Assembly: GCA_011033025.1 (NCBI GenBank)
Contig: WFMF01000083.1
Coordinates: 62,001 to 126,000 of the forward strand
Reading direction: 5' to 3'
DNA: 64,000 bases
Source of the DNA: Beroe forskalii
Taxonomy: Eukaryota > Ctenophora > Nuda > Beroida > Beroidae
The notes beneath the pieces are model-generated. The model was not told where the DNA came from. It did no database searches and saw only the letters and a program-made list of their open reading frames with translations. The translations under genes and the position numbers were made by a program. Shown here one piece after another: positions 1 to 62,330 of the stretch (its first letter is position 1; each line of letters begins with the position of its first letter).

Positions 1-390
1 TATTAATTTTTCGCATCATTTTCAAATGGTATCTCATTTTGTTTCTGATTTTTATCACACGTCTTTTTAAAATGGTACCCCATTTGCCTTCACTCCTTTC
101 TGAAATGGTACCCTCTTATAGTGTCTTTTTATAGTGTCTGATTTTTCACAAGTTTTTAAAATGGTACCATTTTATCTCTGATTTTGCACGCCTTTCTGGA
201 ATGGCACCATTTTGTTTGTGATTTCTCTTTTTCTCAAATGGTACCTTTTTGCTCCAGATTTTTAACACACTTTTTTGAAATTGTAACAATTTTATATATG
301 TGATTTTTTGCACCTTCTTGAAATGGTGCCATGTTTCTCTGAGTTTTCACGCCTTTCTGAAATGGTACCATTTTTGTTGTCTTAGTTTGG
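1..390. repeat. Degenerate minisatellite, AAATGGTACC motif
   Basis: The stretch repeats a degenerate unit of roughly 55 bp built from AAATGGTACC, then a T-rich run, then TCTGATTTTT and CACGCCTTTCTG. About seven diverged units can be counted. The same array opens copy B at 20672, where it is slightly shorter because one unit has been lost. No coding function is visible. Confidence 0.75.
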
Positions 391-639
391 TAATTCTTTC
401 AGACTGTATGAATGGTTGCCTATCTAGACTAATTTCTGGTGTCGATAGGGATTTAATTTTGGTGGGTTTGATTTGAACCCCCAAGTGGATTTAAAAAATT
501 TCCAATAAGGGATTTAATTTGAGGGAGCTTCCCCCCCCCCCAATACAAACCTACACACTTAAAACACTGGAAAACGTGAATAAAATACCAACTAGTGCTA
601 GTTGCTGAGGGAGTACAATACAAACTGTTTTTCAGCCCA

Positions 640-1318
640 TAATATGTAAGATGTCAACAATTTATTCCAATTTCGCTCTAAATGAGCAACATTGACTCTA
701 TAAATAATTTTCATGCATAATCAGATGGTTTGAACTTTTCAAAAATCAAACAGGGTCCTTCCGTGGTCCTTCACTACGCCTCCAACACAAAGAGATACGT
801 TTTATTCGTGCCTTGACGGTAGAGATCATAGTCTGTTGTGTATTCACCGTACTGACCATGTTACAACCATTCTTGGAATTCTTAACATCTGATCTGCGAT
901 ATTGGACCTTTGAAAGGAACACTCACAAGGTTGGTGAAACATCATATAATTTGTTACATTTGCCGTAAGATGGATATTTAATTCTTATGACTATGAGCTT
1001 ATGGAGTGAGTAGTTAGTTTGTTTCAATATTGTTCCAAATGAGTGATATGAAATCTATGAATTATTTACATAGCATAACCAGATCGCTTTAACTTTTCAA
1101 TAATCAAACAGGGCTCCGAGTTCCTTCCCTATGCCTCCAACACAAAGCGATACGACGCACTCATGCTTTGATGGTACAGATCATGATCTGTTGCGTATTC
1201 ACCGTGCAGACCATGCAACAACTATTCATGGAATTCTTGCCTTCTGGGATCCGCGATACGATATCACTATCAGACCTCTGGAAGGAACACTCAAAAGGTT
1301 GGTGAAACATCTATAATT
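640..1318 (+). repeat. Diverged tandem duplication with a short open frame in the second unit
   Basis: Two related units of about 310 bp follow each other (about 640-955 and 1005-1318). Both carry CCTCCAACACAAAG, then GTATTCACCGT, then AGGAACACTCA and GGTTGGTGAAACATC. In the second unit a frame from an ATG at 1131 stays open for 61 residues. In the first unit the corresponding frame (SCLDG.DH..L.IHRTDH) is broken by stops. The open copy is kept in block B (21758-21943) with a few amino-acid changes. I do not recognise the peptide; it may be a relic exon or chance. Confidence 0.55.
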
Positions 1319-2022
1319 TCAAAATGGCAGAAGAATTTCAAAATTTGAGATGAAAATCTTATCTCCGTGAGAAATATTTTTGTTAGACCCTCGAACTTCT
1401 GGGGGCTGCGCCCCCAGACCCCCGCTGTCCTTTTGTTGGACTGCCTGCTCGCTGTGATGCTTCAATTCCTTGCTATTTTCAAGGAATATCAGCTTAACAT
1501 ATGTGTTTGAAGTATGTTTTTAAATCGTGTTGTCAATATTCCTGAGGCTTGATTTCGTGCCATGATTCCCTGACAAGGATAAAAAGCGAACTTCATTCTT
1601 TAATTACCATTCAGTCAAAATGAACTAAATTTTTTGTCTGACTTGCTGTGCCAGCCACATTTCATAGTTTACATTCTTTAATCTTGTCATTAAATTTATA
1701 ATTTCGGCTGATTCTTTGTAAACAATTCAATGGACATATCTTAGAAACATTTTCGAAGTTTTTGGTGGGGGGTTGGTCGAATTTTTGAAATTCAGGGGTG
1801 GGGTGCCCAAAGGGGGGGTATGAGGATTTAGAAAATTCAGCCCGTTTGGCAAGCGGGAGTTAAAAAATTCAGGGGGATTGGACCCAGGATGAAGCTATGA
1901 TAAATATCCCTCGCAAGGTTTTTGGATTTCAAAAACATTTTTTATCATCTTGATACATAGGCGTTAGCATGAGGAACGGAGTAGCGGACTTTTCCCCCTC
2001 AGGACATTTCATTTTGTAATAT

Positions 2023-2250
2023 GTGACCACCGTTAGGCAAAGGTTAGGGCCTGGGTTAGAGCTGACGTATTTATCTCTATCTCTGCTGGCCCTAGCCTAT
2101 GACTCTACTCTAGCCCTAAACAGTCAACAATATACGCAATGGTTAGGGTTTCGCTCTGCACCTTCTGGTAATAATGTTGCGATATACACGCCTCTTGTTG
2201 TAATAACCCTATCCCAGACCCTAACCATTGCGTATATTGTTGACTGTTGA
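2023..2250. repeat. CCCTAACC-rich inverted repeat (hairpin)
   Basis: The arms CAGTCAACAATATACGCAAT (from 2121) and its reverse complement (ending near 2247) enclose CCCTAACC-like sequence. The left arm and loop are missing from copy B, where CCCTAAAC joins directly to ATAACCCTATCCC near 23190. The element resembles the other CCCTAACC hairpins in this window (7386-7456, 17336-17523). Confidence 0.7.
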
Positions 2251-2633
2251 AATATCATGTGGTAAAATGTCGTGAGGTGAAATGTCCGACGTCCGTTCCC
2301 CAGCGTCGGTTTAGACTGGGACATACCGGCCTCGTGTCTTGCACTAAGTCCCTGATCACCCCCGCCCCCATTTTAACGAATAATAACAAACATTTTTCAG
2401 ATGCCGATTTCCGCGTAGTCATCAGTTTTGGGAATGTGAACATTGATGGGTACAACCTTGCACCACTGGAATACGGATATCCTTGCCACCCGGTCACGTC
2501 ACACCTCCCCTCTGAGAAAATTTTAGATGAAAGCCGTCCAACGCCATGCCCTCTTCTTACAATGATTGGTATCTACCTATCAGGCTTCAGAAATCTCAAG
2601 GTTGGCCAAAAATATGAAATTTGGTATATTTGA
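2247..2633 (+). other. Open frame of 128 residues kept in both duplicate copies, unrecognised
   Basis: The frame opens with ATG at 2247 and ends with TGA at 2633. Block B carries the same frame at 23235-23621 with few replacements and no stops. It has no domain I recognise, no clear signal peptide and no repeats. Recent duplication alone would keep the frame open, so conservation is weak evidence. It may be an exon relic or non-coding DNA. Confidence 0.25.
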
Positions 2634-3375
2634 GAATTGACTATTGGGATGTATCTGTTAGAAAATGACGGTAAACGCTGATGATTTACAGTTGAGAATC
2701 TCATCGATCCTTCTGTTTCTGTATTTACTTATTCATATCATTTACTTACTCATATTTACTTATTCATATTATAATGAATTTGTACTTTAGAAGCGTAAGA
2801 CGAACACGCAAACAATATAAATGCCTGTTTATAGAGCAGGCATTCATATAAAATTTGAATGTCGACTGCGCAGCTGGAGACATTTAAATGATTAAAGTGC
2901 GAGGCGAAGCGAAGCTGAGCCGAGTGCTCTAAATCGTTTCAGTGCGAGTTTGAGCCTCTAAAAGTTCAAAGTACTTATATAGTAGTCTCACGACATGTTT
3001 AGTTAGAGCGATTAATTCAAGACAGTAAAATTTGTGCTGGGTAGCTCAAAAAATCATCCCAAATGGCAAAGTTTCATCAATAAACTTCAAAGTTATTAAG
3101 ATTTACTTTTGTCAACTTTCGAGCCATCCGATATAAATTCGTCTATATTTAAGTATTTAGTACTAATTGGCGTTCGGTAATCGTGCTTTTATAGAAAAAT
3201 AAATTCATATATACTAGAGTCTAGAGTAGTTAGTTATAAATAAGTAAATAGAGTTGGAGTTTTTCGATAAATTTTGGGATGGTTTAGAACTAGATCACAC
3301 ATTTTTGCGATAAAAATTTGAAATACCGGGTGTCGTAAAAAAGTGTACAAAAGTGGAGCTCTATAACCAGTTTTT

Positions 3376-4149
3376 CAGTAACAGGAGAGTTTACCCCGCG
3401 ACAGTTTAACCTGCGACAGTTTACCCCGGATCGCATGATTCTCTTCTGGGAGAAAAAAATGTGATCCGATGTATCACCATGGAGCTTGTCAATGTCTCAT
3501 TTTGCAATAACTATAAGCTTGTGCTTGGATGGGATAGAGTCACGGTATCAGTAAACAAGGATATGACGAATTCATAGTATAGGTATATCAGCCTGTTGGA
3601 TCGAAAGTGTCGTTCACGATGTCTACGTTCCAACGAACATTCCTGCACATAGCTGATGCCAACAGCCAACCGCGTCCAGCCTCCTGCCTCCACTCCCTCA
3701 CCTTCCTCACCTCAACCTTCTTCCACTCTTGCTGGACCACTTACCTTCATCCTCAGTGGGAAAAGGAGGCCCAAGCTTGTCCAATGTCCATGAAGGATAT
3801 CAGATAGTGCGGATTCATTGCTTGGCGGTGTGTCCTCAACAACGAACACACAAGAGAAGAAGGGCATCAACTGCTCCTCTACAGCTGTGACAGCTGGCTC
3901 CACTTCCTCATCCTCCCTTGACTATGCCCCACCTTCCCAACTGTTCCAAAGTTGCAGCCCTAACGATCCTTGGAAAAACGAAAACAATTGCTGTGGGAAA
4001 TCCTGCTGCCCCTCCCGTCGATTATCATCATTTCCTAAACCAAACTTCTAAACCTCTTTTGCACATAAGATTTTACTCAAGTGCAAATGATTAGATCCGG
4101 GCGGTAAACTGTCGCGGGGTAACATTTCGCGGGGTAAACTATCGCCAAC
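3376..4149. mobile_element. Mutator-like non-autonomous element, copy A
   Basis: A perfect 9-bp direct repeat CCAGTTTTT flanks this segment (3367-3375 and 4150-4158). Both ends carry inverted motifs built from GTTTACCCCGCGACAGTTTA: the left end reads inward as AGTTTACCCCGCGACAG, and the right end in reverse complement as ATAGTTTACCCCGCGAAA. A 9-bp target duplication with repetitive G/C-rich termini is typical of Mutator-like elements. The interior (about 3590-4050) is more GC-rich than the flanks and has overlapping frames on both strands, but no transposase motif. The copy in block B has lost about 145 bp internally. Confidence 0.75.
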
Positions 4150-4159
4150 CCAGTTTTTT

Positions 4160-4625
4160 ACCCATAACTCCGTTTGTGGGACTCAGAAGTGTTAGCCGCT
4201 CCATGGTCATGTTGGTCTGATGTTGCCCGTAATATCCTGAAATTTTTATCAAGATTGCTCAAAAAACCTCTGAGGTATGCGCCTTTTTTGTATCGCAGAA
4301 AGTGTAAATCACGCACAATGTAGGGGCACATATGCAAGCTTGCATAGTTTCACAACTCCAAATATGGGATAAATACCATTACCATTACCTACTTAAGTAC
4401 ACGTTTGTTAACTATACATTTTATAGTTTTCTATCTGCCGATTTGAGTGTAAGGTTGCGTGTATACAGTATACACTTTTTTTGCGCTACAAAAAGTAGCA
4501 TATATCAGAGGTTTTTCTAGCTATCTCGATAAAACTTTCAGGATAATGCGGGCAACATCTGACCAATATGGCCATGGAGTGGCTAACATTTTCGGGTCCC
4601 AGAAACGGAATTGTGGTAAGAAACA
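4160..4625. repeat. Inverted repeat with ~120-bp arms
   Basis: The left arm (about 4160-4285, with GATGTTGCCCGTAATATCCTG) is matched by the reverse complement at about 4500-4625 (reading GATGTTGCCCGCATTATCCTG on the minus strand), with about 210 bp between them. A third related copy in direct orientation lies at about 10166-10285, beyond the foldback insertion. Arms are diverged, perhaps 80-85% alike by eye. Function unknown. Confidence 0.7.
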
Positions 4626-4751
4626 AATTTTTGTTAACTCAGACATTTTTGAGCTTGATACTTAGATAGACAGTTCTAATTTTTTCGGATAAACTTATCA
4701 TCCATACATAATATGACTATTACCAAAATTTCATTAAGAATCTCCAAACAG

Positions 4752-4759
4752 AACAAAAG
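4752..4759 (+). repeat. Target-site duplication AACAAAAG, left
   Basis: AACAAAAG lies immediately left of the foldback element. The same 8 bp recur at 10134-10141, and only once in the matching place of block B (25592-25599). Confidence 0.95.
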
Positions 4760-5289
4760 GGTAAAATGGTAGTACAGGAACATGGATGAATTTAGCCCCC
4801 AATAGCCCCCATTAGCCCCCATGGGGGCTACGTGAGGGGCTAATAAGGGGCTAGTGAGGGGCTAATTTTAAGCATTTAGCCCCCGTGGGCGCTAAAATAG
4901 CGTGGGGGCTATAGCGCCCACGGTGAGGGGCTATTTAGCCCCCATTAGCCCCCATTAGCCCCTCACTAGCCCCTCACTAGCCCCTCACGTAGCCCCCACG
5001 GGGGCTAAAAATGAAGGTTAGCCCCTTATTAGCCCCCCATTAGCCCCTCACAGAAAAAATTAGCCCCATTAGCCCCCACGGATTTTAAGTTTGTGAATTT
5101 CCATGGGGCTATTGTGCCCATATGAGGGGCTATTGCTCTCATATGAGGGGCTATTGCGCCCATATGAGGGGCTAATTTGCTGGTTTCTGGCAAAATCAGC
5201 TAGCCCCCACCAGAAGTAAATTTTGTGCTAAAAATGCAAATTTTCAAATCGTATTAAAAATTGCAAGACCACTAGCCCCCACCGTTACA

Positions 5290-6285
5290 AAATACCTAAC
5301 TAGGTCCCTGCCCCTTACTAGCCCCTCATTAGCCCCTCACTAGCCCCTTATTAGCCCCACACTAGCCCCTTATTAGCCCCTTATTAGCCCCTTATTAGCC
5401 CCTTATTAGCCCCTTATTAGCCCCTCACTAGCCCCTTATTAGCCCCCTCAGCCCCTTTATTAGCCCCTTATTAGCCCCTCACTAGCCCCTTTATTAGCCC
5501 CTCACTAGCCCCTCACTAGCCCCTTATTAGCCCCTTATTAGCCCCTTATTAGCCCCTTTATTAGCCCCTCACTAGCCCCTTATTAGCCCCTCACTAGCCC
5601 CTTATTAGCCCCTCACTAGCCCCTTATTAGCCCCTCACTAGCCCCTTATTAGCCCCTTATTAGCCCCTTATAGCCCCCTTATTAGCCCCTCACTAGCCCC
5701 TTTACTAGCCCCTCACTAGCCCCTTATTAGCCCCCTTATTAGCCCCTTACTAGCCCCTTATTAGCCCCTTATTAGCCCCTCACTAGCCCCTTATTAGCCC
5801 TCACTAGCCCCTTTATTAGCCCCTCACTAGCCCCTTATTAGCCCCTTATTAGCCCCTCACTAGCCCCCTTATTAGCCCCTCACTAGCCCCTTATTAGCCC
5901 CTCACTAGCCCCTTTATTAGCCCCTTATTAGCCCCTCACTATCCCCTTATTAGCCCCTCGGCCCTCACTAGCCCCTTATTAGCCCCTCACTAGCCCCCCT
6001 TATTAGCCCTTATTAGCCCCTTTATTAGCCTCTCACTAGCCCCTTATTAGCCCCTCACTAGCCCCTTATTAGCCCCTCACTAGCCCCTTTATTAGCCCCT
6101 TATTAGCCCTCACTAGCCCCTTTATTAGCCCCTCACTAGCCCCTTATTAGCCCCTCACTAGCCCCTTATTAGCCCCTCACTAGCCCCTTATTAGCCCCTC
6201 ACTAGCCCCCTTATTAGCCCCTCACTAGCCCCTTATTAGCCCTCACTAGCCCCTTATTAGCCCCCTCACTAGCCCCTCACCTGCC
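5290..6285 (+). repeat. Left-arm array of TAGCCCCTTAT/TAGCCCCTCAC
   Basis: About 1 kb consists almost wholly of two 11-bp variants, TAGCCCCTTAT and TAGCCCCTCAC, in irregular alternation, with occasional 12-bp units that have one extra T or C. It is the mirror of 8641-9602. Confidence 0.95.
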
Positions 6286-6561
6286 CTCATGCATTCAGAT
6301 CATAGTGCAGTTACTACGTCACGTGATATGTCACGTGACATTTCACGTGGTAGACCACAAGAAATATCACGTGAACTCTAGTTCTCTCCAGTGCAGATTA
6401 TATCCAGTGCTGATTATATCCAGTGCCGATTTTATCCGATGCTCTGTTGAATCGTAAATAAATACTAATAAGTAAAATTCGTGCGCGGCTCTTCCACTTT
6501 GATCCTTGAAGCAGAAAAATACCATTACTGATACTAATCCTTTATATTGTCAGACGCACGC

Positions 6562-7385
6562 CCCCGCTGGCCCACCAAAAGCAAAGGTGAAAGGGATCAG
6601 ACAACGTCTGACAGACTCTTTGAGTCTGTGCGCGCGAGTGCGCGGAGGGGCCTGGCAACGCCAGGCAAGGATTAGGAAGTCACCCTACACACCGCTAGCA
6701 TTGCTTCTAAACCTAACCATAGCTCTAACCAAAACCCTAACCTTAATGCAGAATGCAAACCCTTCCTAAGTATAAGGGCTTAGGAAAGGTGTATGCACGA
6801 TTGCGGCTTCCCCTTACCAGCGTATGTCTCGCATGTAAACAGGGCTGAGTGACCTCACAGATCTAAAGGTCAAGTTTTTGTATCCTCAACCTAACTGTGA
6901 CCCTAAGCAAAACAAAAATCTTAATCCTAACCCTAAACATTGCTGTAGGATGTTACCCTACCCTCCGCCGCGCACACATCGTTTGCAACATGACCCTCCA
7001 AACTTCGGTATGTCTCCCATATAAACGGTTCTGAGTGACGTCACAGATCTAAACGTCAATTTTTCTGTAGCCCTAACCAAAACCCTAATCCTAACACTAA
7101 CCCTAACAAATCCTGACCCTAATCCTGACCCTAACCCTGACCCTAACCCTAGTCCTTAAAGCGATAGGTGCGCGTAATTATATTTTTCTGAGTGACGTCA
7201 TTGTCATAGATAATTAAGGCTCCCTTTTATATGGTAGACCAACCCAAACTTCAGAGTGTTGCGCGCTAGGGATGGGAGAAATCCATCAAAAACATTGTAT
7301 TTTTAAATCCCGACCCTAATCCTAACCTCTAAAGCGCTAGAGTGACGTCATTGTGATAGATAAGATAATGAAGGCTCGTACTCGA
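6562..7385. repeat. Foldback centre: CCCTAA-like and TGACGTCA-containing repeats
   Basis: The part of the element not in the inverted arms holds at least two diverged units of about 185 bp (6823-6954, 7008-7105 and beyond). Each runs GTATGTCTC.CAT.TAAAC, then GAGTGACGTCACAGATCTAA, then a CCCTAACC-rich run. TGACGTCA or a close variant occurs several times. The same module lies reversed at about 62035-62300, outside any foldback. No convincing gene is present. Confidence 0.8.
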
Positions 7386-7456
7386 AGTTTGTGATGCCCC
7401 TGGTCACTGGTTAGGGCTAGACTAGCCCTAACCAGTGACCAGGGGCATCACAAACT
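7386..7456. repeat. Perfect 35-bp-arm hairpin
   Basis: 7386-7420 and 7422-7456 are exact reverse complements separated by one A. The apex reads GGTTAGGGCTAGACTAGCCC. It sits at the inner edge of the right arm of the foldback element. Confidence 0.97.
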
Positions 7457-7563
7457 GGAAGAGGCGTGCGTCTGACAATATAAAGGATTAGTATCAGTAA
7501 TGGTATTTTTCTGCTTCAAGGATCAAAGTGGAAGAGCCGCGCACGAATTTTACTTATTAGTAA

Positions 7564-8498
7564 TAGTGCGTTCGGAAAAGATTGTCACTTGGAATTTTCT
7601 GGAAAAACGGCTGCCGGGAGTGACTTTTTGATGTGATATTTGTTTTTTTCAGGCATTTTTGGATTAAGATAATCGGGTTTTACCGATAACTAAGTTTTCT
7701 TAGCCCATTCTACAGCAGATTCAAATTTCTAATTATTTGCTCCGCTGTACGAAACTGACCACAAATTTCGTTGTCAAAGAAAACGTGCTATCAACGGACC
7801 CAAGAAGTGTGAGATAATCAAAATGAAGCTGTTGCAGCACACGTGGATGCTAACCGGAACAAATGGACTGTTTTTGGTCGAGATGAAATAATCCTAAGGG
7901 GTGCTTTGACCTCAAAAAGTATATGCTCCAGATAGGGCAGTTGCAACTTTTGCTCTGGTAATTGCCCAGAAACAGAACATTTAAATAACTTGAAACCTTC
8001 GGTTATCGTGTTAGGCTATTAGTTCAGACCCTTCCGTACAAGACACAACCATTTTTAAGATTTTGACTAATTTTCTTAACATCAGAAACGTGTGTGCTAG
8101 CTGTGTACTGCATTATCGGTTACTGAACTGTTAAATTTGCCACTTTTTAGCTCCACTCATTATCAATAATGCAGGGTTAAATTGTACAGAAATTTGCCCC
8201 GGATGTCAACCAATCATCCTATTCTTTAGTTTTGGACCTGAAGGCCCTGAATATGTCCTGAATAGTGAAATCGGACCATAAAAACATGTCCTAGAAGATG
8301 TAGAATTCGCCATACAGCGGAGCACCTGAAAACAATCAAAAAACAGGCTAGATGACCCACTCAAAAATCTTCGTTAACACTGAAAATTTGCAATTCAGTC
8401 TGTTAGAGACCCTAGTACTCGACTATGTTGAAATTTTGATAATTTTGGTCATATTCGTCATTTTATGCCTGTAGTGACAATCATTTCCGAACGCCCTA
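7564..8498. mobile_element. Nested DNA transposon in the right foldback arm, no transposase
   Basis: The left end TAGTGCGTTCGGAAAAGATT and the reverse complement of the right end (TAGGGCGTTCGGAAATGATT) match over about 25 bp. Removing the segment restores the symmetry of the foldback arms, whose left-arm counterpart is near 6455-6475. The flanks suggest a short duplication around GTA(A/T), with one mismatch. No long frame lies inside, so it is a non-autonomous element of undetermined superfamily. Confidence 0.8.
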
Positions 8499-8640
8499 GT
8501 ATTTATTTACGATTCAACAGAGCATCGGATAAAATCGGCACTGGATATAATCTGCACTGGAGAGAACTAGAGTTCACGTGATATTTCTTGTGGTCTGCCA
8601 CGTGACATATCACGTAGTAACTGCACTATGATCTGAATGC

Positions 8641-9602
8641 ATGAGGGGCTAGTGAGGGGCTAATAAGGGGCTAGTGAGGGGCTAATAAGGGGCTAGTGAG
8701 GGGCTAATAAGGGGGCTAGTGAGGGGCTAATAAGGGGGCTAGTGAGGGGCTAATAAGGGGCTGGTGAGAGGCTAATAAGGGGGCTAATAAGGGGCTAGTG
8801 AGGGGCTAATAAGGGGGTTAGTGAGGGGCTAATAAGGGCTAATAAGGGGCTAATAAGGGGGCCAATAAGGGGCTAGTGAGGGCTAATAAAGGGGCTAGTG
8901 AGGGGCTAATAAGGGGCTAGTGAGGGCTAATAAGGGGGCTAATAAGGGGCTAATAAGGGGCTAGTGAGGGCTAATAAGGGGCTAGTGAGGGCTTATAAGG
9001 GGCTAATAAGGGGCTAATAAGGGGCTAGTGAGGGGCTAATAAGGGGCTAGTGAGGGGCTAATAAGGGGGCTAATAAGGGGGATGAGGGCTAATAAGGGGC
9101 TAGTGAGGGCTAATAAGGGCTAGTGAGGGCCAATAAGGGGCCAGTGAGGGGCTAATAAGGGGGCTAGTGAGGGCTAATAAGGGGCTAGTGAGGGGCTAAT
9201 AAGGGGGCTAATAAGGGGCTAGTAAGGGGCTAGTGAGGGGCCAATAAGGGGGCTTGTGAGGGGCTAATAAGGGGCTAATAAGGGGCTAGTGAGGGGCTAA
9301 TAAGGGGCTAGTGAGGGGCTAATAAGGGGCTAATAAGGGGCTAGTGAGGGGCTAATAAGGGTGCTAGTGAGGGGCTAATAAAGGGGCTAATAAGGGGGCT
9401 AGTGAGGGGGCTAATAAGGGGCTAATAAGGGGCTAGTGAGGGCTAGTGAGGGGCTAATAAGGGCCAGTGAGGGCCATAAGGGCTAGTGAGGGGCTAATAA
9501 GGGGCTAATAAGGGCTAATAAGGGGCTAGTGAGGGCCTAATAAAGGGCTAATAAGGGGGCTAGTGAGGGGCTAATAAGGGGGCTAGTGAGGGCTAGTAAG
9601 GG
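8641..9602 (-). repeat. Right-arm array, reverse complement of the left-arm TAGCCCC array
   Basis: The sequence is built from GTGAGGGGCTA and ATAAGGGGCTA units, which are the reverse complements of the left-arm units. Unit order and indels differ from the left arm, so the arrays have evolved by unequal exchange or slippage since they formed. Confidence 0.95.
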
Positions 9603-10133
9603 GCAGGACCTAGTTAGGTATTTTGTAACGGTGGGGGCTAGTGGTCTTGCAATTTTTAATACGATTTGAAATTTGCATTTTTAGCACAAAATTTACTTCT
9701 GGTGGGGCTAGCTGATTTTGCCAGAAACCAGCCAAATTAGCCCCCTCATATGGGCGCAATAGCCCCTCATATGGGACAATAGCCCCCATATGCCGACGCA
9801 ATAGCCCCATGGAAATTCACAAACTTAAAATCCGTGGGGGCTAATGGGGGCTAATTTTCTGTGGGGGCTAATGGGGGGCTAATAAGGGGCTAACCTTCAT
9901 TTTAGCCCCCGTGGGGCTACGTGAGGGGCTAGTGAGGGCTAATGGGGCTAAATAGCCCCTCACCGTGGGCGCTATAGCCCCCACCATAGCCCCACGCTAT
10001 TTTAGCGCCACGGGGCTAAATGCTGTAAAATTAACCCTCACTAGCCTTATTAACCCCTCACGTAGCCCCCATGGGGGCTAATGGGGGCTATTGGGGGCTA
10101 AATTCATCCATGTTCCTGTACTACCATTTTACC

Positions 10134-10141
10134 AACAAAAG
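10134..10141 (+). repeat. Target-site duplication AACAAAAG, right
   Basis: Direct repeat of 4752-4759, followed by TTTTAAAGCTC exactly as after the single copy in block B at 25592-25599. Confidence 0.95.
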
Positions 10142-10913
10142 TTTTAAAGCTCTTCTTTTGTGCACTATTTTGACTATATCTCCGCTTCTGAAATTCGAAA
10201 ATGTTAGCTACTCCATAATAATGTTCTTCACATGCTGCCCGTAATATCCTGAAAGTTTGATTAAGATTGCTTAAAAAACGGCGGAGTTATGTGCTTTTTG
10301 TAATTAATGTAAATAAGCAACGTGATTATTACCATATAAGGTAATGTGTGCTTGTTATGTACACGAACAGTACACAGGGTGTGAAACTGTTCGACTACTA
10401 TAATAAGTATATGGAAGTATGAACTTATTGATAAGACGTGAAAATAACACTTTAATGTTATTTGACATTTTTGCACTAATCGACTAATCGATAAATCATG
10501 TATCCGAATGCACCGTGAAATGGGACAAAACTGCAAACACATCTTTTTGACTAGCAGAATTTCCGTAAAGTATATAGAAAGCACTCTTTTTCAGCATTTA
10601 GCAGTCACCTAATTATAGGTGAGACGCATAGGATTTTCAGAAAACTTGATAGTACCGTGCATCATGTTGACCTTTCATAAAGTCAATTGCCAAAAATTTA
10701 ATCGAAAGCTCATTCTATGCCAATTTCATGGCCTCATGGTGGCAGTTCAATTTTCGCAACTTCGTCCTATGCATCTCTACTATTATGACTTAGTGATATG
10801 TAAGGCCTTCGGCCAAGGGAATGTTTGATGTGGGAAATGACACAAAAAAACCGGGTGTGGTGTGCAGTATACAAGTACAACATCAACGCAGATTTTTGTG
10901 AATTATTACGTTA

Positions 10914-11355
10914 CTAGCAGGCCCATTCGGCGCTGCTACGCAGCATCACACTCACAAATTTCGGACCTACGCAGTTCAAATTAATGAAAATCTTTTACCC
11001 ACATCGAAAATTCGAATCAAGAACCAAATTTATTCAGGGAAATAGCGTAACAAAACCAACAAATCAAGAAATGAAATTCACACTTCTCATATTACCATAG
11101 CAACGCAAGCATTTCCCACTATCTGCACGTGCATGCCGACACAAATCCATACACACATCGACACAGTGCCCATACACAGTTTCCCATTCTAATCTATGAT
11201 GCCGACACAATGACCCATACACACGCCGACACAAAATCCACACACGCCGACACAGTGTCCATACACACAGTTTTTCCCATTCTTATCCATGATGCCGACA
11301 CAATAATCCACACACACCGACACAAAATCATACACACTTGCCAAATTATAATTAA
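10914..11355. mobile_element. Insertion in copy A with ACTAGCAGGCCC end and GCCGACACA minisatellite
   Basis: Blocks B and C read GTTATATATGGGCG here; copy A instead has about 440 bp beginning ACTAGCAGGCCCATTCGGCG and ending near TTATAATTAAAATGGGCG. The first ~50 bp (CGGCGCTGCTACGCAGCA) recur at about 27476-27535. The right part (11130-11340) is a minisatellite of GCCGACACA and CCATACACA words spaced roughly 18-40 bp. The shared 5' sequence and presence/absence pattern indicate a mobile element, but no family is assigned and no clear target duplication is seen. Confidence 0.6.
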
Positions 11356-11659
11356 AATGGGCGTCGACTCTTTGAACTTTTAAGTGAGACTGCTGCCATT
11401 CAGTCTGCTTCAGAGAGAAACTATTGAGTTGCATCCCGGCCATTTCAGCCCCCGATTGAATCAGGTTACCTACCATATTATTGCTGAAACAACCATGCCC
11501 TAATATGTATGATTTATGCATCCTTAAACTTCAAGTTAAAGTCAAATATAGCGTTATCTTAATCCTCAGTCTAATATTTAGGATTGGATTCAGGCCTTTA
11601 CTTGTTATAGGTACAATTTTGATGGACATCGATTTGTCATCCGACCGGTTTTAAATTGT

Positions 11660-13700: not shown

Positions 13701-14037
13701 CTACTTATAAAGGTTGTTGTAAATGAGCAAAATATATCATGGAAATAATATTATCAATCAGCTAGTCAAGGTGCAGGATAATCGATTGCGATTTCTGACT
13801 GATCTACAAAATATAATAAATTAATATCAAGAGGATCTGAGATTGGCAATGTTGCCATTTAGCCAGTAATAGCAAATATTTGACCCAATAGATTGGCCAA
13901 ATAACATTAATTACTAGCTACCAATATTTGAAAATATCCAATAACAACACAATTCGATTCAATTTGATTTTGCTTTTGGTCAATCTTAAATAGCTCTCAA
14001 TTCACGTTATTTCCGTTAAGATATCATCAACTCAGCA

Positions 14038-17000
14038 TTGATTAAAATCGACCAACGTCTGCCACAGATTTATGAAGAGATGCCATCAGAAATAGCCTCC
14101 ACAATGACAGCCAAACCCGATCTCTATCTTCAGGTCAAATTAAGTAATATTGGTGTTGTGCCAAGCTTCTACAAGAAGGGACTCATTACACCGCTTTTTA
14201 AAAAAGGTAGTAGATGTGAAGCGGCTAACTACAGACCTGTCACTCTGACTTCTCATGTTGTCAAGGTCTATGAAAATGTGGTCAAAAAGCACATGGTACA
14301 GCATATTGAATCCAACATTCTTCTCACCGATAAACAACACAGATTCAGATCAAATAGAAGCTGCCTTACCCAAATGCTCGACCATTTTGATGACATATTT
14401 GAAGGGTTCACGCGTGGCGAGGACACAGACTCTATTTACCTCGACTACGCAAAAGCGTTTGATAAAGTGGATCTAGGTCTCCTTGTTCAGAAACTGAAGA
14501 GATATGGATTTCATGATAAAATCATTGATTGGATTCAGTCCTTCCTTTCTGACCGGGAGCAAACTGTAGTACTTAATGGTACTCATTCTGACAGTGCTCT
14601 TGTTCTTAGTGGTGTTCCTCAAGGAAGTGTTCTGGGGCCGCTTTTATTCATCATGTTCATTAATGACCTGGAACATATAGTACTCTCACCAAAGGTGAGC
14701 TTCTTTGCTGATGACACTAGAGTTCCAAAACAGATCAGATGCTACGAAGACTGTTTGTTACTTCAGGATGACTTGTTCCGTATTATTGGTTGGTCACACG
14801 CCAATAACATGAAACTTCACGAACAGAAGTTTGAGCTTCTGAATCACCTTCACAATCAAAGAAGCCTTTTCCTCGAACTCCCGTTCTTTGCTGAAGCATT
14901 GCAGTACAAGGTATCCGATGAGGAAGTACTCTACCCTGTTGAGAATGTTAGGGACCTCGGTGTTCAGGTAGCAAGCGATCTAAGCTGGTCAAGACACATC
15001 GCAAGCATGGTCACCAAGGCTAAAAGTACACTATCATGGGTGCTCAGTGTCTTCAAAACTCGTGACAGTAAGTAAACAAAGTTTAAGTAAACAAAGTTTT
15101 TATTGATCTCCACAATTTACAATCAAACAACACACAAAAGAAGGATGAAGATATAATGCTACCAAATTTCACCAATTATATATTAGTATCTGAGGTAGAT
15201 AATTTATTTCGGATACACTAAATATTGTTATTAAGATTCTCGTTTTGAATTCTTTAGATAGGTACAGACAATCAAATAATTTAAGAATGGTTCATGATAG
15301 TATGATTTGTAGCCTATAATAATTATAAGTCATATCATTTTTAATAAGTATTATTTAATTTATATCTGGATGTATATTGTATTATCTGTATTGTGTCAAT
15401 AGGTACCATTATAGTTCATCAGACCAATTAAGGCCTAGTTAAATGAAGCACACTTGACATGTTAGTGGCGAAATGCCATGGTTTAGAAAACTCTACAGCT
15501 TGGTCTGCTACACAAAGGAGAGTGATATCAGACCCCTTTGCAAAGCACGTACTTCATGACATGGCAGTAAAGCACGCATCTTGGGGCACACCAAGCGTAT
15601 AGAGAGGTCTACTTAATGTCATTTACATGAAGTTATTAACAAGGCTTTTTAAAACTGGTCCAATGAATTTAACTATTATTCATGGTTGTGTTGACCAATT
15701 TTGTTTCAGAGGACCATTTGACCAGTGTAGCAGTATTTGTGGCTGGAGAAAGGACACTGTTGCTATATGCTTAAGAGTGCCCCTGGGGACCACCTGCCAC
15801 ACTGACCAGGGCCCACTTTTATATCTTTATTTAGTAATAACTTTATCTTCATAAGAGTGTATTTAAATTTAATAGACATCATAGTCTATGGTACAGAAAT
15901 AAAGCCTTATCACGTACAACTCATCAAGTACGACTTTCATGTACTGCTCTCATAATTCACAACTCTCATTACAACATGAAAGTTGTTGCACATCTTGATT
16001 TACAAGTGTGCAACATTGTCCAATGAAAATGTGCTATACCTGTACACCTTCTTCCTTTTATAGCACGCGCCCACTGGGCAATGTTTAGTTGGTTTGAGCT
16101 TTGTCTTTTCTTTCAAACTATAACAACAACATACTTCAATATGCAGTGTATTCTCATAACGAATTTGAGAGTAGTTTATGTGCAAGTCTATGTAAAATAT
16201 AAAATTCTTGATCACTTGATTATAAACCTGTTTCAAAATTTTAGATCAGTAACAAATTGATTTCTCTGTGTAATGGTCGACCTACCGAACCTTCCTTTCC
16301 AGGTTATTTTCAAAAGTTGGATTAAAAATGGGATGAACATTGGTCAGAGGCTATGTTATCAGTAGGAATTTTCAGACAGTGCTCAGCCGGGACTGCACAC
16401 CCCGTGCACGGCATCAGTTACCCGCCCGCTCACACAGCACCAAAAAGCAGCATGACATGAGCAGATCACGAGTGATCAAGAGGGGGGACGGGCAAGTGAA
16501 ACCGGCACAAAGCCACTGTCATGACTACAATGTACAAGTCAATTGTAAGAAGTACACTAGAGTACTGCTGTCCCCTGTGGAACCCGAGCAAGATAACTGA
16601 CATTCAACTGATTGAAGGGGTTCAAAGGACATTCACAAGTTGGATAGGAGGCCTCCGCCACCTGAACTACTGGGAGAGATTGGCTAAGCTGAAATTGATG
16701 TCACTTCAACGCAGACGGGAAAGGTACATCATCCTTATGATGTGGAAGATCTTCCACAATGTTGTCCCAAACTGCTGCAATATCAAGTTTAGTTTGACAT
16801 CAAGGCACGGTGCAGTAGCAGTTATTCCTCCCCTGTCTAGGTTAAGCTCATTAGCCAATCAGATGCTTTATGATAGATCATTTGCAGTCCTAGGTCCAAA
16901 ACTATGGAACCAAGTACCGAGCACTATTGAAGAATGATGTGCATTGAATCGTGTTGCCCAATTGGCAAAATCCTTTTATTTATTTTATTTAATCGATAAA

Positions 17001-20671: not shown

Positions 20672-23600
20672 TATTAATTTTTCGCATCATTTTCAAATGG
20701 TATCTCATTTTGTTTCTGATTTTTATCACACGTCTTTTTAAAATGGTACCCCATTTGCCTTCACTCCTTTCTGTAATGGTACCCTCTTATAGTGTCTTTT
20801 TATAGTGTCTGATTTTTCACAAGTTTTTAAAATGGTACCATTTTTATCTCTGATTTTGCACGCCTTTCTCAAATGGTACCTTTTTGCTCCAGATTTTTAA
20901 CACACTTTTTTGAAATTGTAACAATTTTATATATGTGATTTTTTGCACCTTCTTGAAATGGTGCCATGTTCTCTGAGTTTTCACGCCTTTCTGAAATGGT
21001 ACCATTTTTGTTGTCTTAGTTTGGTAATTCTTTCAGACTGTATGAATGGTTGCCTATCTAGACTAATTTCTGGTGTCGATAGGGATTTAATTTTGGTGGG
21101 TTTGATTTGAACCCCCAAGTGGATTTAAAAAATTTCCAATAAGGGATTTAATTTGAGGGAGCTCCCCCCCCCCCCAATACAAACCTACATACTTAAAACA
21201 CTGGAAAACGTGAATAAAATACCAACTAGTGCTAGTTGCTGAGGGAGTACAATACAAACTGTTTTTCAGCCCATAATATGTAAGATGTCAACAATTTATT
21301 CCAATTTCGCTCTAAATGAGCAACATTGACTCTATAAATAATTTTCATGCATAATCAGATGGTTTGAACTTTTCAAAAATCAAACAGGGTCCTTCCGCGG
21401 TCCTTCACTACGCCTCCAACACAAAGAGATACGTTTTATTCGTGCCTTGACGGTAGAGTCTGTTGTGTATTCACCGTACTGACCATGTTACAACCATTCT
21501 TGGAATTCTTAACATCTGATCTGCGATATTGGACCTTTGAAAGGAACACTCACAAGGTTGGTGAAACATCATATAATTTGTTACATTTGCCGTAAGATGG
21601 ATATTTAATTCTTATGACTATGAGCTTATGGAGTGAGTAGTTAGTTTGTTTCAATATTGTTCCAAATGAGTGATATGAAATCTATGAATTATTTACATAG
21701 CATAACCAGATCGTTTTAACTTTTCAATAATCAAACAGGGCTCCGAGTTCCTTCCCTATGCCTCCAACACAAAGCGATACGACGCACTCATGCTTTGATG
21801 GTACAGATCATGATCTGTTGCGTATTCACCGTGCAGACCATGCAACAACTATTCATGGAATGCTTGCCTTCTGGGATCTGCGATACGATATCACTATCAG
21901 ACGTCTGGAAGGAACACTCAAAAGGTTGGTGAAACATCTATAATTTCAAAATGGCAGAAGAATTTCAAAATTTGAGATGAAAATCTTATCTCCGTGAGAA
22001 ATATTTTTGTTAGACCCTCGAACTTCTGGGGGCTGCGCCCCCAGACCCCCGCTGCCCTTTTGTTGGACTGCCTGCTCGCTGTGATGCTTCAATTACTTGC
22101 TATTTTCAAGGAATATCAGCTTAACATATGTGTTTGAAGTTTTCTGGGCTTGATTTCGTCCATGATTCCCTGACAAGGATAAAAAGAAAAAATCTGTTGT
22201 TTAATTACCATTCAGTCAAAATGAACTAAATATTTTGTCTGACTTGCTGTTTTAGCACATTTCAGGCTTGATTTCGTGCCATGATTTTTGGATAATTTCC
22301 TTTTATGTTTTGGATAAAAATGAAATGGATTTGTTAGAAACTTCTTTAAACAGAAAATATTGTTTTGATTCAGTCCCAAATTTTGATGATTTTTGGCAAC
22401 TAAATTTTTTAAAAATTCATCTGACTTGCTGAACAAATTTGGAAAGTTTCAGGATGATTCTTTCATAGATTTTTTTTACATTCTTTAATCTTGATCATTA
22501 AATTTACAAAGGCAAATTCCGGATGATTTTTAAATTTTTCATTCCGTAAAAGTTTTTTAATGGATGCATCATTTCTTAGCCAAAACTCCAACATATGTGT
22601 TTGAAGTATGTTTTTAAATTGTGTTGTCAATATTCCTGAGGCTTGATTTCGTACCATGATTCCCCGACAAGGATAAAAAGCGAACTTCATTCTTTAATTA
22701 CCATTCAGTCAAAATGAACTAAATTTTTTGTCTGACTTGCTGTGCCAGCCACATTTCATAGTTTACATTCTTTAATCTTGTCATTAAATTTATAATTTCG
22801 GCTGATTCTTTGTAAACAATTCAATGGACATATCTTAGAAACATTTTCGAAGTTTTTGGTGGGGGGTTGGTCGAATTTTTGAAATTCAGGGGTGGGATGC
22901 CCAAAGGGGGGTATGAGGATTTAGAAAATTCAGCCCGTTTGGCAAGCGGGACCCAGGATGAAGCTATGATAAATATCCCTCGCAAGGTTTTTGGATTTCA
23001 AAAACATTTTTTATCATCTTGATACATAGGCGTTAGCATGAGGAACGGAGTAGCGGACTTTTCCCCCTCAGGACATTTCATTTTGTAATATGTGACCACC
23101 GTTAGGCAAAGGTTAGGGCCTGGGTTAGAACTGACGTATTTATCTCTATCTCTGCTGGCCCTAGCCTATGACTCTACTCTAGCCCTAAACATAACCCTAT
23201 CCCAGACCCTAACCATTGCGTATATTGTTGACTGTTGAAATATCATGTGGTAAAATGTCGTGAGGTGAAATGTCCGACGTCCGTTCCCCAGCGTAGGTTT
23301 AGACTGGGACATACCGGCCTCGTGTCTTGCACTAAGTCCCTGATCACCCCCGCCCCCATTTTAACGAATAATAACAAACATTTTTCAGATGCCGATTTCC
23401 GCGTAGTCATCAGTTTTGGGAATGTGAACATTGATGGGTACAACCTTGCACCACTGGAATACGGATATCCTTGCCACCCGGCCACGTCACACTTCCCCTC
23501 TGAGAAAATTTTAGATGAAAGCCGTCCAACGCCATGCCCTCTTCTTACAATGATTGGTATCTACCTATCAGGCATCAGAAATCTCAAGGTTGGCCAAAAA

Positions 23601-26600
23601 TATGAAATTTGGTATATTTGAGAATTGACTATTGGGATGTATCTGTTAGAAAATAAAGGTAACCGCTGATGATTTACAGTTGAGAATCTCATCGATCCTT
23701 CTGTTTCTGTATAATTTACTTATTCATATCATTTACTTACTCATATTTATTTATTCATATTATAATGAATTTGTACTTTAGAAGCGTAAGACGAACACGC
23801 AAACAATATAAATGCCTGTTAGAGCAGGCATTCATATAAAATTTGAATGTCGACTGCTCAGCTGGAGACATTTAAATGATTAAAGTGCGAGGCGAAGCGA
23901 AGCTGAGCCGAGTGCTCTAAATCGTTTCAGTGCGAGTTTGAGCCTCTAAAAGTTCAAAGTACTTATATAGTAGTCTCACGACATGTTTAGTTAGAGCGAT
24001 TAATTCAAGACAGTAAAATTTGTGCTGGGTAGCTCAAAATATCATCCCAAATGGCAAAGTTTCATCAATAAACTTCAAAGTTATTAAGATTTACTTTTGT
24101 CAACTTTCGAGCCATCTGATATAAATTCGTCTATATTTAAGTATTTAGTACTAATTGGCGTTCGGTAATCGTGCTTTTATTGAAAAATAAATTCATATAT
24201 ACTAGAGTCTAGAGTAGTTAGTTATAAATAGAGTTGGAGTTTTTCGATAAATTTTGGGATGGTTTAGAACTAGATCACACATTTTTGCGATAAAAATTTG
24301 AAATACCGGGTGTCGTAAAAAAGTGTACAAAAGTGGAGCTCTATAACCAGTTTTTCAGTAACAGGACAGTTTACCCGCGACAGTTTACCCTGCGACAGTT
24401 TACCCCGGATCGCATGATTCTCGGCTGGGAGAAAAAAATGTGATCCGATGTATCACCATGCAGCTTTTCAATGCCTCATTTTGCAATAACTATAAGCTTG
24501 TGCTTGGATGGGATAGAGTCACGGTATCAGTAAACAAGGATATGACGAATTCATAGTATAACTATATGTATATCAGCCTGTTGGATCGAAAGTATCAGTG
24601 AGAAAAGGAGGCCCAAGCTTGTCCAATGTCCATGAAGGATATCAGATAGTGCGGATTCATTGCTTGGCGGTGTGTCCTCAACAACGAACACACAAGAGAA
24701 GAAGGGCATCAACTGCTCCTCTACAGCTGTGACAGCTGGCTCCACTTCCTCATCCTCCCTTGACTATGCCCCACCTTCCCAACTGTTCCAAAGTTGCAGC
24801 CCTCAAGATCCTTGGAAAAACGAAAACAATTGCTGTGGGAAATCCTGCTGCCCCTCCCGTCGATTATTATCATTTCCTAAACCAAACTTCTAAACCTCTT
24901 TTGCACATAAGATTTTACTCAAGTGCAAATGATTAGATCCGGGCGGTAAACTGTCGCGGGGTAACATTTCGCGGGGTAAACTATCGCCAACCCAGTTTTT
25001 TACCCATAACTCCGTTTGTGGGACTCAAAAATGTTAGCCACTCCATGGTCATATTGGTCTGATGTTGCCCGTAATATCCTGAAATTTTTATCAAGATTGC
25101 TCAAAAAACCTCTGAGGTATGCGCCTTTTTTGTATCGCAGAAAGTGTAAATCACGCACAATGTAGGGGCACATATGCAAGCTTGCATAGTTTCACAACTC
25201 CAAATATGGGATAAATACCATTACCATTACCTACCTAAGTACACGTTTGTTAACTATACATTTTATAGTTTTCTATCTGCCGATTTGAGTGTAAGGTTGC
25301 GTGTATACAGTATACACTTTTTTTGCGTTACAAAAAAGAGCATATATCAGAGGTTTTTCTAGCTATCTCGATAAAACTTTCAGGATAATACGGGCAACAT
25401 CTGACCAATATGGCCATGGAGTGGCTAACATTTTCGGGTCCCAGAAACGGAATTGTGGTAAGAAACAAATTTTTGTTAACTCAGACATTTTTGAGCTTGA
25501 TACTTAGATAGACAGTTCTAATTTTTTTCGGATAAACTTATCATCCATACATATGACTATTCCCAAAATTTCATTAAGAATCTCCAAACAGAACAAAAGT
25601 TTTAAAGCTCTTCTTTTGTGCACTATTTTGACTATATCTCCGCTTCTGAAATTCAAAAATGTTAGCTACTCCATAATAATGTTCTTCACATGCTGCCCGT
25701 AATATCCTGAAAGTTTGATTAAGATTGCTTAAAAAACGGCGGAGTTATGTGCTTTTTTGTAATTAATGTAAATAAGCACCGTGATTATTACCATATAAGG
25801 TAATGTGTGCTTGTTATGTACACGATTTTAGGGTGTGAAACTGTTCGACTACTATAATAAGTATATGTAAGTATGAACTTATTGATAAGACGTGAAAATA
25901 ACACTTTAGTGTTATTTGAGATTTTTGCACTAATCGACTAATCGATAAATCATGTATCCGAATGCACCGTGAAATGGGACAAAACTGCAAACACATCTTT
26001 TTGACTAGCAGAATTTCCGTAAAGTATATAGAAAGCACTCTTTTTCAGCATTTAGCAGTCACCTAATTATAGGTGAGACGCATAGGATTTTCAGAAAACT
26101 TGATAGTACCGTGCATCGTGTTGACCTTTCATAAAGTCAATTGCCAAAAATTTAATCGAAAGCTCATTCTATGCCAATTTCATGGACTCATGGTGGCAGT
26201 TCAATTTTCGCAACTTCGTCCTATGCATCTCTACTATTATGACTTAGTGATATGTAAGGCCTTCGGCCAAGGAAATGTTTGATGTGGGAAATGACACAAA
26301 AAACTGGGTGTGGTGTGCAATATACAAGTACAACATCAACGCAGATTTTTGTGAATTATTACGTTATATATGGGCGTCGACTCTTTGAACTTTTTAAGTG
26401 AGACTGCTGCCATTTCAGTCTGCTTCAGAGGAAACTATTGAATTGCATCCCGGCCATTTCAGCCCCCGATTGAATCGGAGTTTACCTACCATATTATTGC
26501 TGAAGCAACCATGCCCTAATATGTATGATTTATGCATCCTTAAACTTTAAGTTAAAGTTAAATATAGCGTTATCGCCCAATCCTCAGTCTAATATTTAGG

Positions 26601-26655
26601 ATTGGATTCAGGCCTTTTACTTGTTATAGGTACAATTTTGATGGACGCCGATTTG
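20672..26655 (+). repeat. Segmental duplication, copy B
   Basis: This is the direct duplicate of 1-11640 without the foldback and the 10914-11355 insertions. It follows a region with two runs of ten or more G (about 20505 and 20630). B has about 455 bp extra at 22140-22600, which is a diverged tandem copy of the adjacent TTAATTACCATTCAGTCAAA sequence. It keeps the single AACAAAAG site (25592-25599) into which the foldback went in A. Confidence 0.93.
24356..24991. mobile_element. Mutator-like non-autonomous element, copy B (internally deleted)
   Basis: The same 9-bp CCAGTTTTT duplication flanks it (24347-24355 and 24992-25000), with the same GTTTACCC/GCGACAG termini as 3376-4149. It lacks about 145 interior bases. 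The shared site shows that insertion preceded the A/B duplication. Confidence 0.75.
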
Positions 26656-27305
26656 TCACCCGTACCGGTTTGTCATACCTTGTTTGATATACCTCATACC
26701 TTGTGCTCTTGTACTTCATGTATCCGACAGACGACTGAAGTAAGGACACTTGTAATATCAATAACACTTCTATAGAGACATATTGCGACGGTACTGGTGG
26801 AAAATCGGTGTTCAACAAAAATTCAATTTCAATACGTCCTGAGGCGTTTCTAAAGCTGCATTTTGATCAATACTTTTATATTTGGGTTGCATATTTCCCT
26901 GCTATTGCTAGTAGTAGTTGTTTCCTCCTTTTAAGTGTTGGCTTCATGAGATTCAACCGCTTTTATCACTCAGCTCATGATGCAACCTATGGCAATTTAA
27001 GTCCAAGGGACCTAGTATCATATTGTTGGAGCGTGGAGATTGGTCTATAATACTATAACATTGTTCTCAGAATTCTGTTGTGTTATTATTCAGTTGTCTT
27101 TTATATTTGCGTAACCAATTAATTAATAATTATATTTTACTTTTAGTGAATTCATATGATATGATACGTGTCGACTGTAATCAATTATCCTTAATCTTGA
27201 GCAATTTTGATGCATATTGGCATTTAATTGTCTATACCTTCAAGTACAACGTACGGCGCGGGCTGTAATCCGCGCACGCGAGTTCCTATTCTTAACCCAT
27301 GCGCG
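25921..27305 (+). repeat. Segment repeated inverted at the right end of the window
   Basis: The reverse complement of this stretch runs from 64000 back to 62604 with very few differences, including a short in-frame-length insertion near 62995. The shared segment ends in CGCGCACGCGAGTTCCTATT. Stretches open for 60-80 codons within it lack a plausible start or recognisable domain. Confidence 0.93.
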
Positions 27306-61969: not shown

Positions 61970-62330
61970 TATTCCACGTTAGAGTGCGCGGCGCGGCTTT
62001 GTTGCAATTCGAATCACAAATATCGCGTCGAATTTTGGGCTAGTGTCCCATATAACTCCTGGCTCTTCATTATCTATGATAATGACGTCAGTCAGAAAAA
62101 TATAGTTAAGCGCACCTAGCGCTTTAAGGACTCAGGTTAGGGTCACGATTAGGGTCAGGATTTGTTAGGGTTAGGGTTAGGATTAAGGTTAGGGTTTTGG
62201 TTAGGGTCATGGTTAGGTTTAGGATACAGAAAAATTGACCTTTAGGTCTGTGACGTCACTCAGCTAGAGTTATATGGGACACATACCGAATTTTGACTTT
62301 TACGGCGCGCGAAGTAGGATTTTACGCTAC
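61970..62330 (-). repeat. TTAGGG-like repeat module shared with the foldback centre
   Basis: Contains GGTTAGGGTCACGATTAGGG and TGTTAGGGTTAGGGTTAGGA, flanked by TGACGTCA motifs and ATAGTTAAGCGCACCTAGCG. The reverse complement matches 7040-7210. The TTAGGG words are degenerate and interstitial, so this is not a telomere end. Confidence 0.8.

Follow-up and report, generated by a model that had tools for sequence, protein, structure and literature searches.

Whether the long inverted repeat at 4760-10133 of the window, that is, the whole 64,000-nucleotide stretch of Beroe forskalii DNA analyzed herein (contig WFMF01000083.1, positions 62,001 to 126,000), is a mobile element, and which enzyme could have moved it, are the questions raised by this locus. 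We read it as a non-autonomous foldback (long inverted repeat) DNA transposon, with a probability of about 0.9. Exact match searches of the window placed AACAAAAG on the + strand at 4752, 10134, and 25592, and GGTAAAATGGTAGTACAGGA at 4760, with the reverse complement of GGTAAAATGGTAGTACAGGA ending at 10133. The element, with the ends GGTAAAATGG...CCATTTTACC, lies between two perfect copies of AACAAAAG, and the foldback element with a perfect 8-bp duplication described in an earlier note was confirmed to the base. Its flanks aligned to a paralogous segment at 24595-25599 (98.2%) and 25592-26366 (97.4%), meeting exactly at a single AACAAAAG, the empty site that the note had also claimed for this second copy (copy B) of the segment. 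A stretch of ~443 bp in copy A (10914-11356) is also missing from copy B (join near 26366-26370), with no clear duplication.

The features that define the foldback class, namely long terminal inverted arms, tandem subrepeats in the arms, and a target duplication on insertion, were all observed. The whole terminal inverted repeat measures ~1.7 kb per side, and each arm holds an array of ~1 kb with 87.5 units of an 11-bp repeat, in line with the earlier description (Table 1). No open reading frame (ORF) of 120 aa or longer was present in the element and no transposase was detected in it, as the note had stated. The loop is rich in telomere-like CCCTAA-like repeats; a stretch of ~200 bp from it (7040-7239) also stands alone at 62065-62264 of the window, and occurs outside an element at another locus (L014, 8559-8763).

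Table 1. Coordinates in the window of the foldback element, its parts, and the paralogous segment
Feature	Position	Strand	Basis
Left copy of 8-bp target duplication AACAAAAG	4752..4759		Exact match
Complete element, read as a non-autonomous foldback transposon; 5374 bp including one nested insertion	4760..10133		Ends, target duplication, paralogous empty site
Left outer arm: conserved terminus GGTAAAATGGTAGTACAGGAACATGGATGAATTTAGCCCC, then mixed direct and inverted AGCCCC units	4760..5309	+	Outer 76 bp found unchanged at 20 listed genome places, two of them the ends of the window copy
Left array, 87.5 copies of 11-bp unit (TAGCCCCTTAT / TAGCCCCTCAC)	5310..6277	+	Repeat count; units also counted in 10 copies
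Left inner arm: unique sequence in which CACGTG repeats are visible by eye	6278..6562	+	Matches in other copies
Loop containing CCCTAA-like repeats; ORFs all shorter than 120 aa	6563..7464		Repeat and ORF inspection
Right inner arm, first part	7465..7562	-	Inverse of left inner arm
Nested unrelated insertion of ~0.93 kb splitting the right inner arm, GCGTTCGGAAA-type inverted ends; short target duplication ambiguous (TAGTA or shorter)	7563..8496		Left arm without it at the same place
Right inner arm, second part	8497..8643	-	Sequence comparison of arms
Right array, 87.5 copies of 11-bp unit (reverse complement)	8644..9604	-	Repeat count
Right outer arm and terminus	9605..10133	-	End matches
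Right copy of target duplication AACAAAAG	10134..10141		Exact match
Copy B of segmental duplication (copy A is 1-4759 plus 10134-11651)	20672..26671		93.7-98.2% identical over aligned pieces
Single AACAAAAG, paralogous empty site	25592..25599		Exact match and flank alignment

The 216-Mb assembly (1134 contigs) was searched for further copies, as the note had proposed. The 20-bp end occurred exactly 35 times (17 forward, 18 reverse) versus 0 for the reversed control pattern, therefore chance is excluded; at up to 3 mismatches there were 393 occurrences versus 27 for the control. The surroundings of all 35 exact ends were examined (~10 kb each), and 22 of them formed 11 pairs. Perfect target duplications flanked all 10 measured paired copies (the window copy and L009-L017), with 8 bp in nine and 9 bp in L015; the eleventh pair is a split insertion flanked on each side by CAAAAACC. 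Their existence contradicts the refuting condition of the note, namely a genome with no further copy of this kind. The 10 measured copies were 3874-7829 bp long (3.9-7.8 kb), and the 5.4 kb of the window element, ~0.93 kb of which is a nested insertion, is mid-range and not 'giant', as it had been called. Terminal inverted repeats of 1.2-1.9 kb were found in eight of the 10, with shorter aligned pieces in L010 and L014 (436 and 112 bp), and the 11-bp unit was frequent in all 10. An assembly artefact is unlikely, since many contigs carry the arrays, at loci independent of one another. Among the smaller copies, L021 is a 346-bp derivative whose duplication matches at 7 of 8 positions. Two 1.0-kb copies on contig C203 (L033, L035) share one duplication and four copies of 0.66-0.83 kb (L036-L039) share another; because its members share one duplication, each set is probably a single insertion carried along by segmental duplication.

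A sister family (family 2, the former being family 1) has a similar terminal motif, 8-bp duplications, and foldback arms of short units, a plan common to both. Its end GGCAAAATGGTACCACAGGA occurred exactly 298 times genome-wide, preceded by A in 37 cases, T in 94, and C or G in 167, and on these counts insertion is not indifferent to the neighboring base. Perfect 8-bp duplications flanked 11 of 12 two-ended copies (L040-L048, L051-L053), with none at L046. The units, for example CAGCCTCCACT and TAGCCTCCACT, are of a ~10-11-bp AGCCTCC type, and terminal inverted alignments in the nine copies L040-L048 ranged from 47 bp to the whole element. L051, L052, and L053, all with perfect duplications, are 6.2, 5.9, and 4.8 kb long.

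To look for pre-insertion sites, 13 joined flank pairs were searched against the genome, ten from family 1 (L009-L017 and the split copy) and three from family 2 (L041, L043, L044). A match across the join was found for at least five of the ten family-1 sites (L010, L012, L013, L015, and the split copy; best match 98-100%, spanning 100 of 108 bp for L013) and for at least two of the three family-2 sites (L041, 99% over 98 of 108 bp; L043, 97%). The 9-bp duplication of L015 was confirmed by its empty-site match. Among the matches listed for L009, L011, L014, L016, L017, and L044, none spanned the join; 40 of 833 candidates were scored, and such misses mean little. Empty relatives exist because several insertion sites, each matched many times, fall within repeats. 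DNA transposition is shown by the perfect duplications, the dispersal of the copies, and the pre-insertion sites together.

The empty site in copy B bears on the order of events. The simplest reading is that the element inserted into copy A after the A/B duplication, as the note had claimed, with precise excision from copy B as the alternative. Precise loss of foldback elements is known from the Drosophila literature, and if the element were ancestral to the segment and had left copy B in this manner, a perfect empty site would look the same and would not date the insertion. However, the empty sites of five other insertions also have a single copy of the duplication, several with many empty relatives. 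Insertion into repeats expects such sites, whereas repeated precise excision is less simple, and we consider excision quite improbable here. A different alternative concerns the split insertion at C1091:205712-239499, whose family-1 outer ends lie 33.8 kb apart and share the duplication CAAAAACC, as a foldback composite of two elements with genomic cargo between them would; the Ising element of Drosophila is a known composite of this kind according to part of its description (PMC6431247). But the interior is a separate 29-kb insert (G000:C1091:207595-236590; L018/L049/L050/L019), lying in the foldback loop. The insert has termini CACCCCATACGCGTG, inverted ends of ~810 bp that are 97.8% identical, and a 5-bp duplication of its own, CCTAA, and its end sequence recurs at 40 or more scored places. 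What spans 33.8 kb is a foldback element of the ordinary sort that houses a second element, so that a composite or giant transposon was rejected; the composite reading is refuted for this copy, and has next to no chance as an account of the family. Replication protein A domains (PF08646, E 6.5e-15; PF16900, E 1.3e-6) are encoded by ORFs of the 29-kb insert, which also contains a degenerate foldback copy at 230349-234828. Its 300-bp end gave 40 scored matches of 272 candidates, many on contig C1069 and several in facing pairs ~4-8 kb apart.

To consider how recently the family moved, we compared ends and arms. The 76-bp end query gave 81 matches; with 40 of 112 first-look candidates scored, 40 were near-full-length ends, and 20 of these were identical over 76 bp, including both ends of the window copy. 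The identical ends would argue for a fairly recent spread. The claim that the element moved recently holds in this relative sense, and 'recent' can not be dated because the outer 300 bp differ by ~5% within as well as between elements (arms of one element 94.9% identical, arms of different elements 95.1%). An arm's own partner was its best match in one of 11 cases, and 1170 of 2000 shuffles reached the mean. For the inner arm, identity was 96.3% within and 95.1% between elements, the own partner was best in none of nine cases, and 29 of 2000 shuffles reached the mean. Homogenization of arms within an element, at most weakly supported by the two comparisons, was not adopted.

The note had suggested an autonomous partner with the same ends; it was sought and not found. 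The coding survey covered the copies read, L033-L039 apart, and would miss spliced or shorter coding pieces. In L009-L017, the three non-repetitive ORFs of at least 110 aa within elements (L010, L011, L014) matched no Pfam family at E 0.01. Five family-2 ORFs of at least 80 aa were scanned: the four from L051 matched nothing, and the one from L053 encodes a reverse transcriptase (PF00078, E 2.3e-8) and belongs to a nested retroelement. On these five ORFs, an autonomous partner among the long copies L051, L052, and L053 was rejected. The genome holds at least 35 IS1595-type (PF12762), that is, Merlin-type, matches and at least 46 matches to Mutator-like element (MULE) transposases (PF10551). 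Neither a DDE_Tnp_IS1595 nor a MULE transposase was found in the copies read, and the search for a same-ended partner encoding either one found none. Proximity was measured to 288 listed ends, comprising 231 of the 298 family-2 ends (67 not listed) and 57 family-1-like ends with at most 2 mismatches. The nearest of the 35 Merlin matches was 28.2 kb and the nearest of the 46 MULE matches 39.6 kb from any listed end, with only 12 of the 35 and 18 of the 46 sharing a contig with one.

Since no transposase coding was found in the copies read, we infer mobilization in trans, and the superfamily of the enzyme and the function of the arrays are inferred likewise. A transposase supplied in trans would recognize the terminus GGTAAAATGGTA..., excise the element, and insert it at a staggered cut, giving the 8-bp (sometimes 9-bp) duplication. 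Merlin (IS1595-like) is the likeliest superfamily for such an enzyme, at nearly even odds, judging from termini and duplication length. Merlin is marked by 5'-GG termini and 8-bp or 9-bp duplications in the part of its description available (PMC8101967); the ends here, GGTAAAATGG / GGCAAAATGG, carry the 5'-GG, and the duplications are 8 bp in nine and 9 bp in one of the 10 measured copies. Because no IS1595 transposase was found in the element or a same-end partner, the family is likened to Merlin and not filed under it. Mutator target duplications are mostly 9 bp (range 8-11). That the same non-autonomous foldback element is mobilized by a MULE transposase is a possibility at odds clearly short of even: the genome holds the MULE matches counted above, Mutator has been suggested as the mover of most foldbacks (in part of PMC4079207), and Tm1 foldbacks have 8-10-bp duplications (in part of PMC3169594). 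However, the Tm1 duplications are mostly 9 bp, the length of one in 10 here, and the nearest MULE match is remote from the listed ends. An enzyme that is neither Merlin nor Mutator is unlikely. The ends of hAT elements are CAG/TAG, and a hAT partner was set aside on termini.

The arrays are most likely multiple putative transposase binding sites around an AGCCYC core. In family 1 (10 copies), successive cores were 11 bp apart in 904 of 1450 intervals; in family 2 (nine copies), 275 of 697 intervals measured 10 or 11 bp and 218 of 697 measured 20-22 bp, counting only intervals of up to 40 bp in both families. The core itself was imposed by the search pattern, and the informative features are spacing, flanking bases, and the parallel arrangement. 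The arrays would act as many transposase sites about one helical turn apart, as for the tandem repeats of Galileo, which hold binding sites of the THAP domain of its transposase (in part of PMC3688188), and may lengthen or shorten by unequal exchange or slippage. In the window copy, canonical G-quadruplex (G4) motifs take up 903 of 961 bases in one array and 832 of 968 in the other (86-94%), as expected if the arrays formed G-quadruplex/i-motif structures or blocked replication instead of binding protein. But G4-motif bases numbered 0 in all four family-2 copies examined, whereas AGCC-type units ~10-11 bp apart persist in this sister family of the same plan. G-quadruplex potential is not common to both families and was rejected as their shared array function, and structure instead of binding is improbable. 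Combining binding sites with a Merlin enzyme, we tentatively propose, as a somewhat doubtful whole, a Merlin-driven foldback lineage in which transposase sites became ~1-kb arrays of helically phased units, and in which the unit has changed from TAGCCCC-type to AGCCTCC-type between two sister families, with core and approximate spacing retained. If true, the two families would be a record left by nature of a transposase evolving in step with its arrays of sites.

Several observations weigh against the account above. Thirteen of the 35 exact ends lacked an exact partner; L021 and L032 have a degenerate one, L026 and L029 run off the contig, and the remaining unpaired ends had no inverted partner at up to 5 mismatches within the ~10 kb examined. 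Over the outer 300 bp, arms within an element are no more alike than those of different elements, and simple whole-element copying predicts otherwise. Neither the copies read nor the proximity comparison with the 288 listed ends revealed an autonomous element ending in this way. The case for Merlin is drawn from termini and duplication length, and that for the array role from the precedent of the Galileo repeats.

Other features were also seen. At 14020-16937 of the window, a reverse-transcriptase ORF (PF00078, E 2.6e-25) is followed downstream by an ORF that matches no Pfam family, and the two are probably a LINE. A unit of ~218 bp is repeated in tandem about five times at 18471-19633, and a weak MULE transposase match at 50690-51205 (- strand; PF10551, E 0.0022, below cut-off) is not linked to foldback ends. 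Locus L020 holds an intact complex I 51-kDa-type ORF (PF01512, E 3e-49).

The movers of foldback elements and the purpose of their repeat arrays have been settled for few such elements. The two families described here have similar termini, number hundreds of ends, and come with documented empty sites; end points and duplication lengths can be read from them cleanly, and their arrays have a core in common. The array role and the identity of the enzyme are thus directly testable in families 1 and 2.

Long inverted arms with tandem subrepeats, a variable middle, a short target duplication, and non-autonomous copies are common to our families, the Drosophila foldbacks FB and Tetris, and the sea urchin TU. 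The FB unit is 31 bp, and the TU unit is 15 bp with 8-bp duplications. The Tetris unit is ~220 bp, whereas that of family 1 is 11 bp. For Tetris, part of PMC4079207 gives arms of up to 1,735 bp and duplications of 8-9 bp in complete and 9-10 bp in rearranged copies, with no coding copy. Galileo, of the P superfamily, has a P-type transposase, whereas a search for it (PF21787) gave 0 matches in this genome, with 14 control genomes silent too. Its termini are of CA type and its duplications 7 bp. Long, internally repetitive arms are the common feature (in part of PMC3688188). Tm1, a Mutator/foldback element of root-knot nematodes, resembles our families in its 8-10-bp duplications and in its composite arms, where a ~14-bp motif is repeated a variable number of times (in part of PMC3169594), but it also has a transposase-bearing member and asymmetric 7-bp ends, neither of which was seen in the families here. 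Merlin shares 5'-GG termini, 8/9-bp duplications, and, in some families, internal tandem repeats, whereas its inverted repeats are 24-462 bp (both in part of PMC8101967) compared with 1.2-1.9 kb in eight of 10 family-1 copies, and its IS1595-type transposase was not detected in the copies read. No family like this was found among the literature titles and abstract openings listed, a search that did not include the end sequence itself and does not show absence from print. The foldback kind is already known; within it, this is a new family of non-autonomous transposons, accompanied by a sister family of the same plan.

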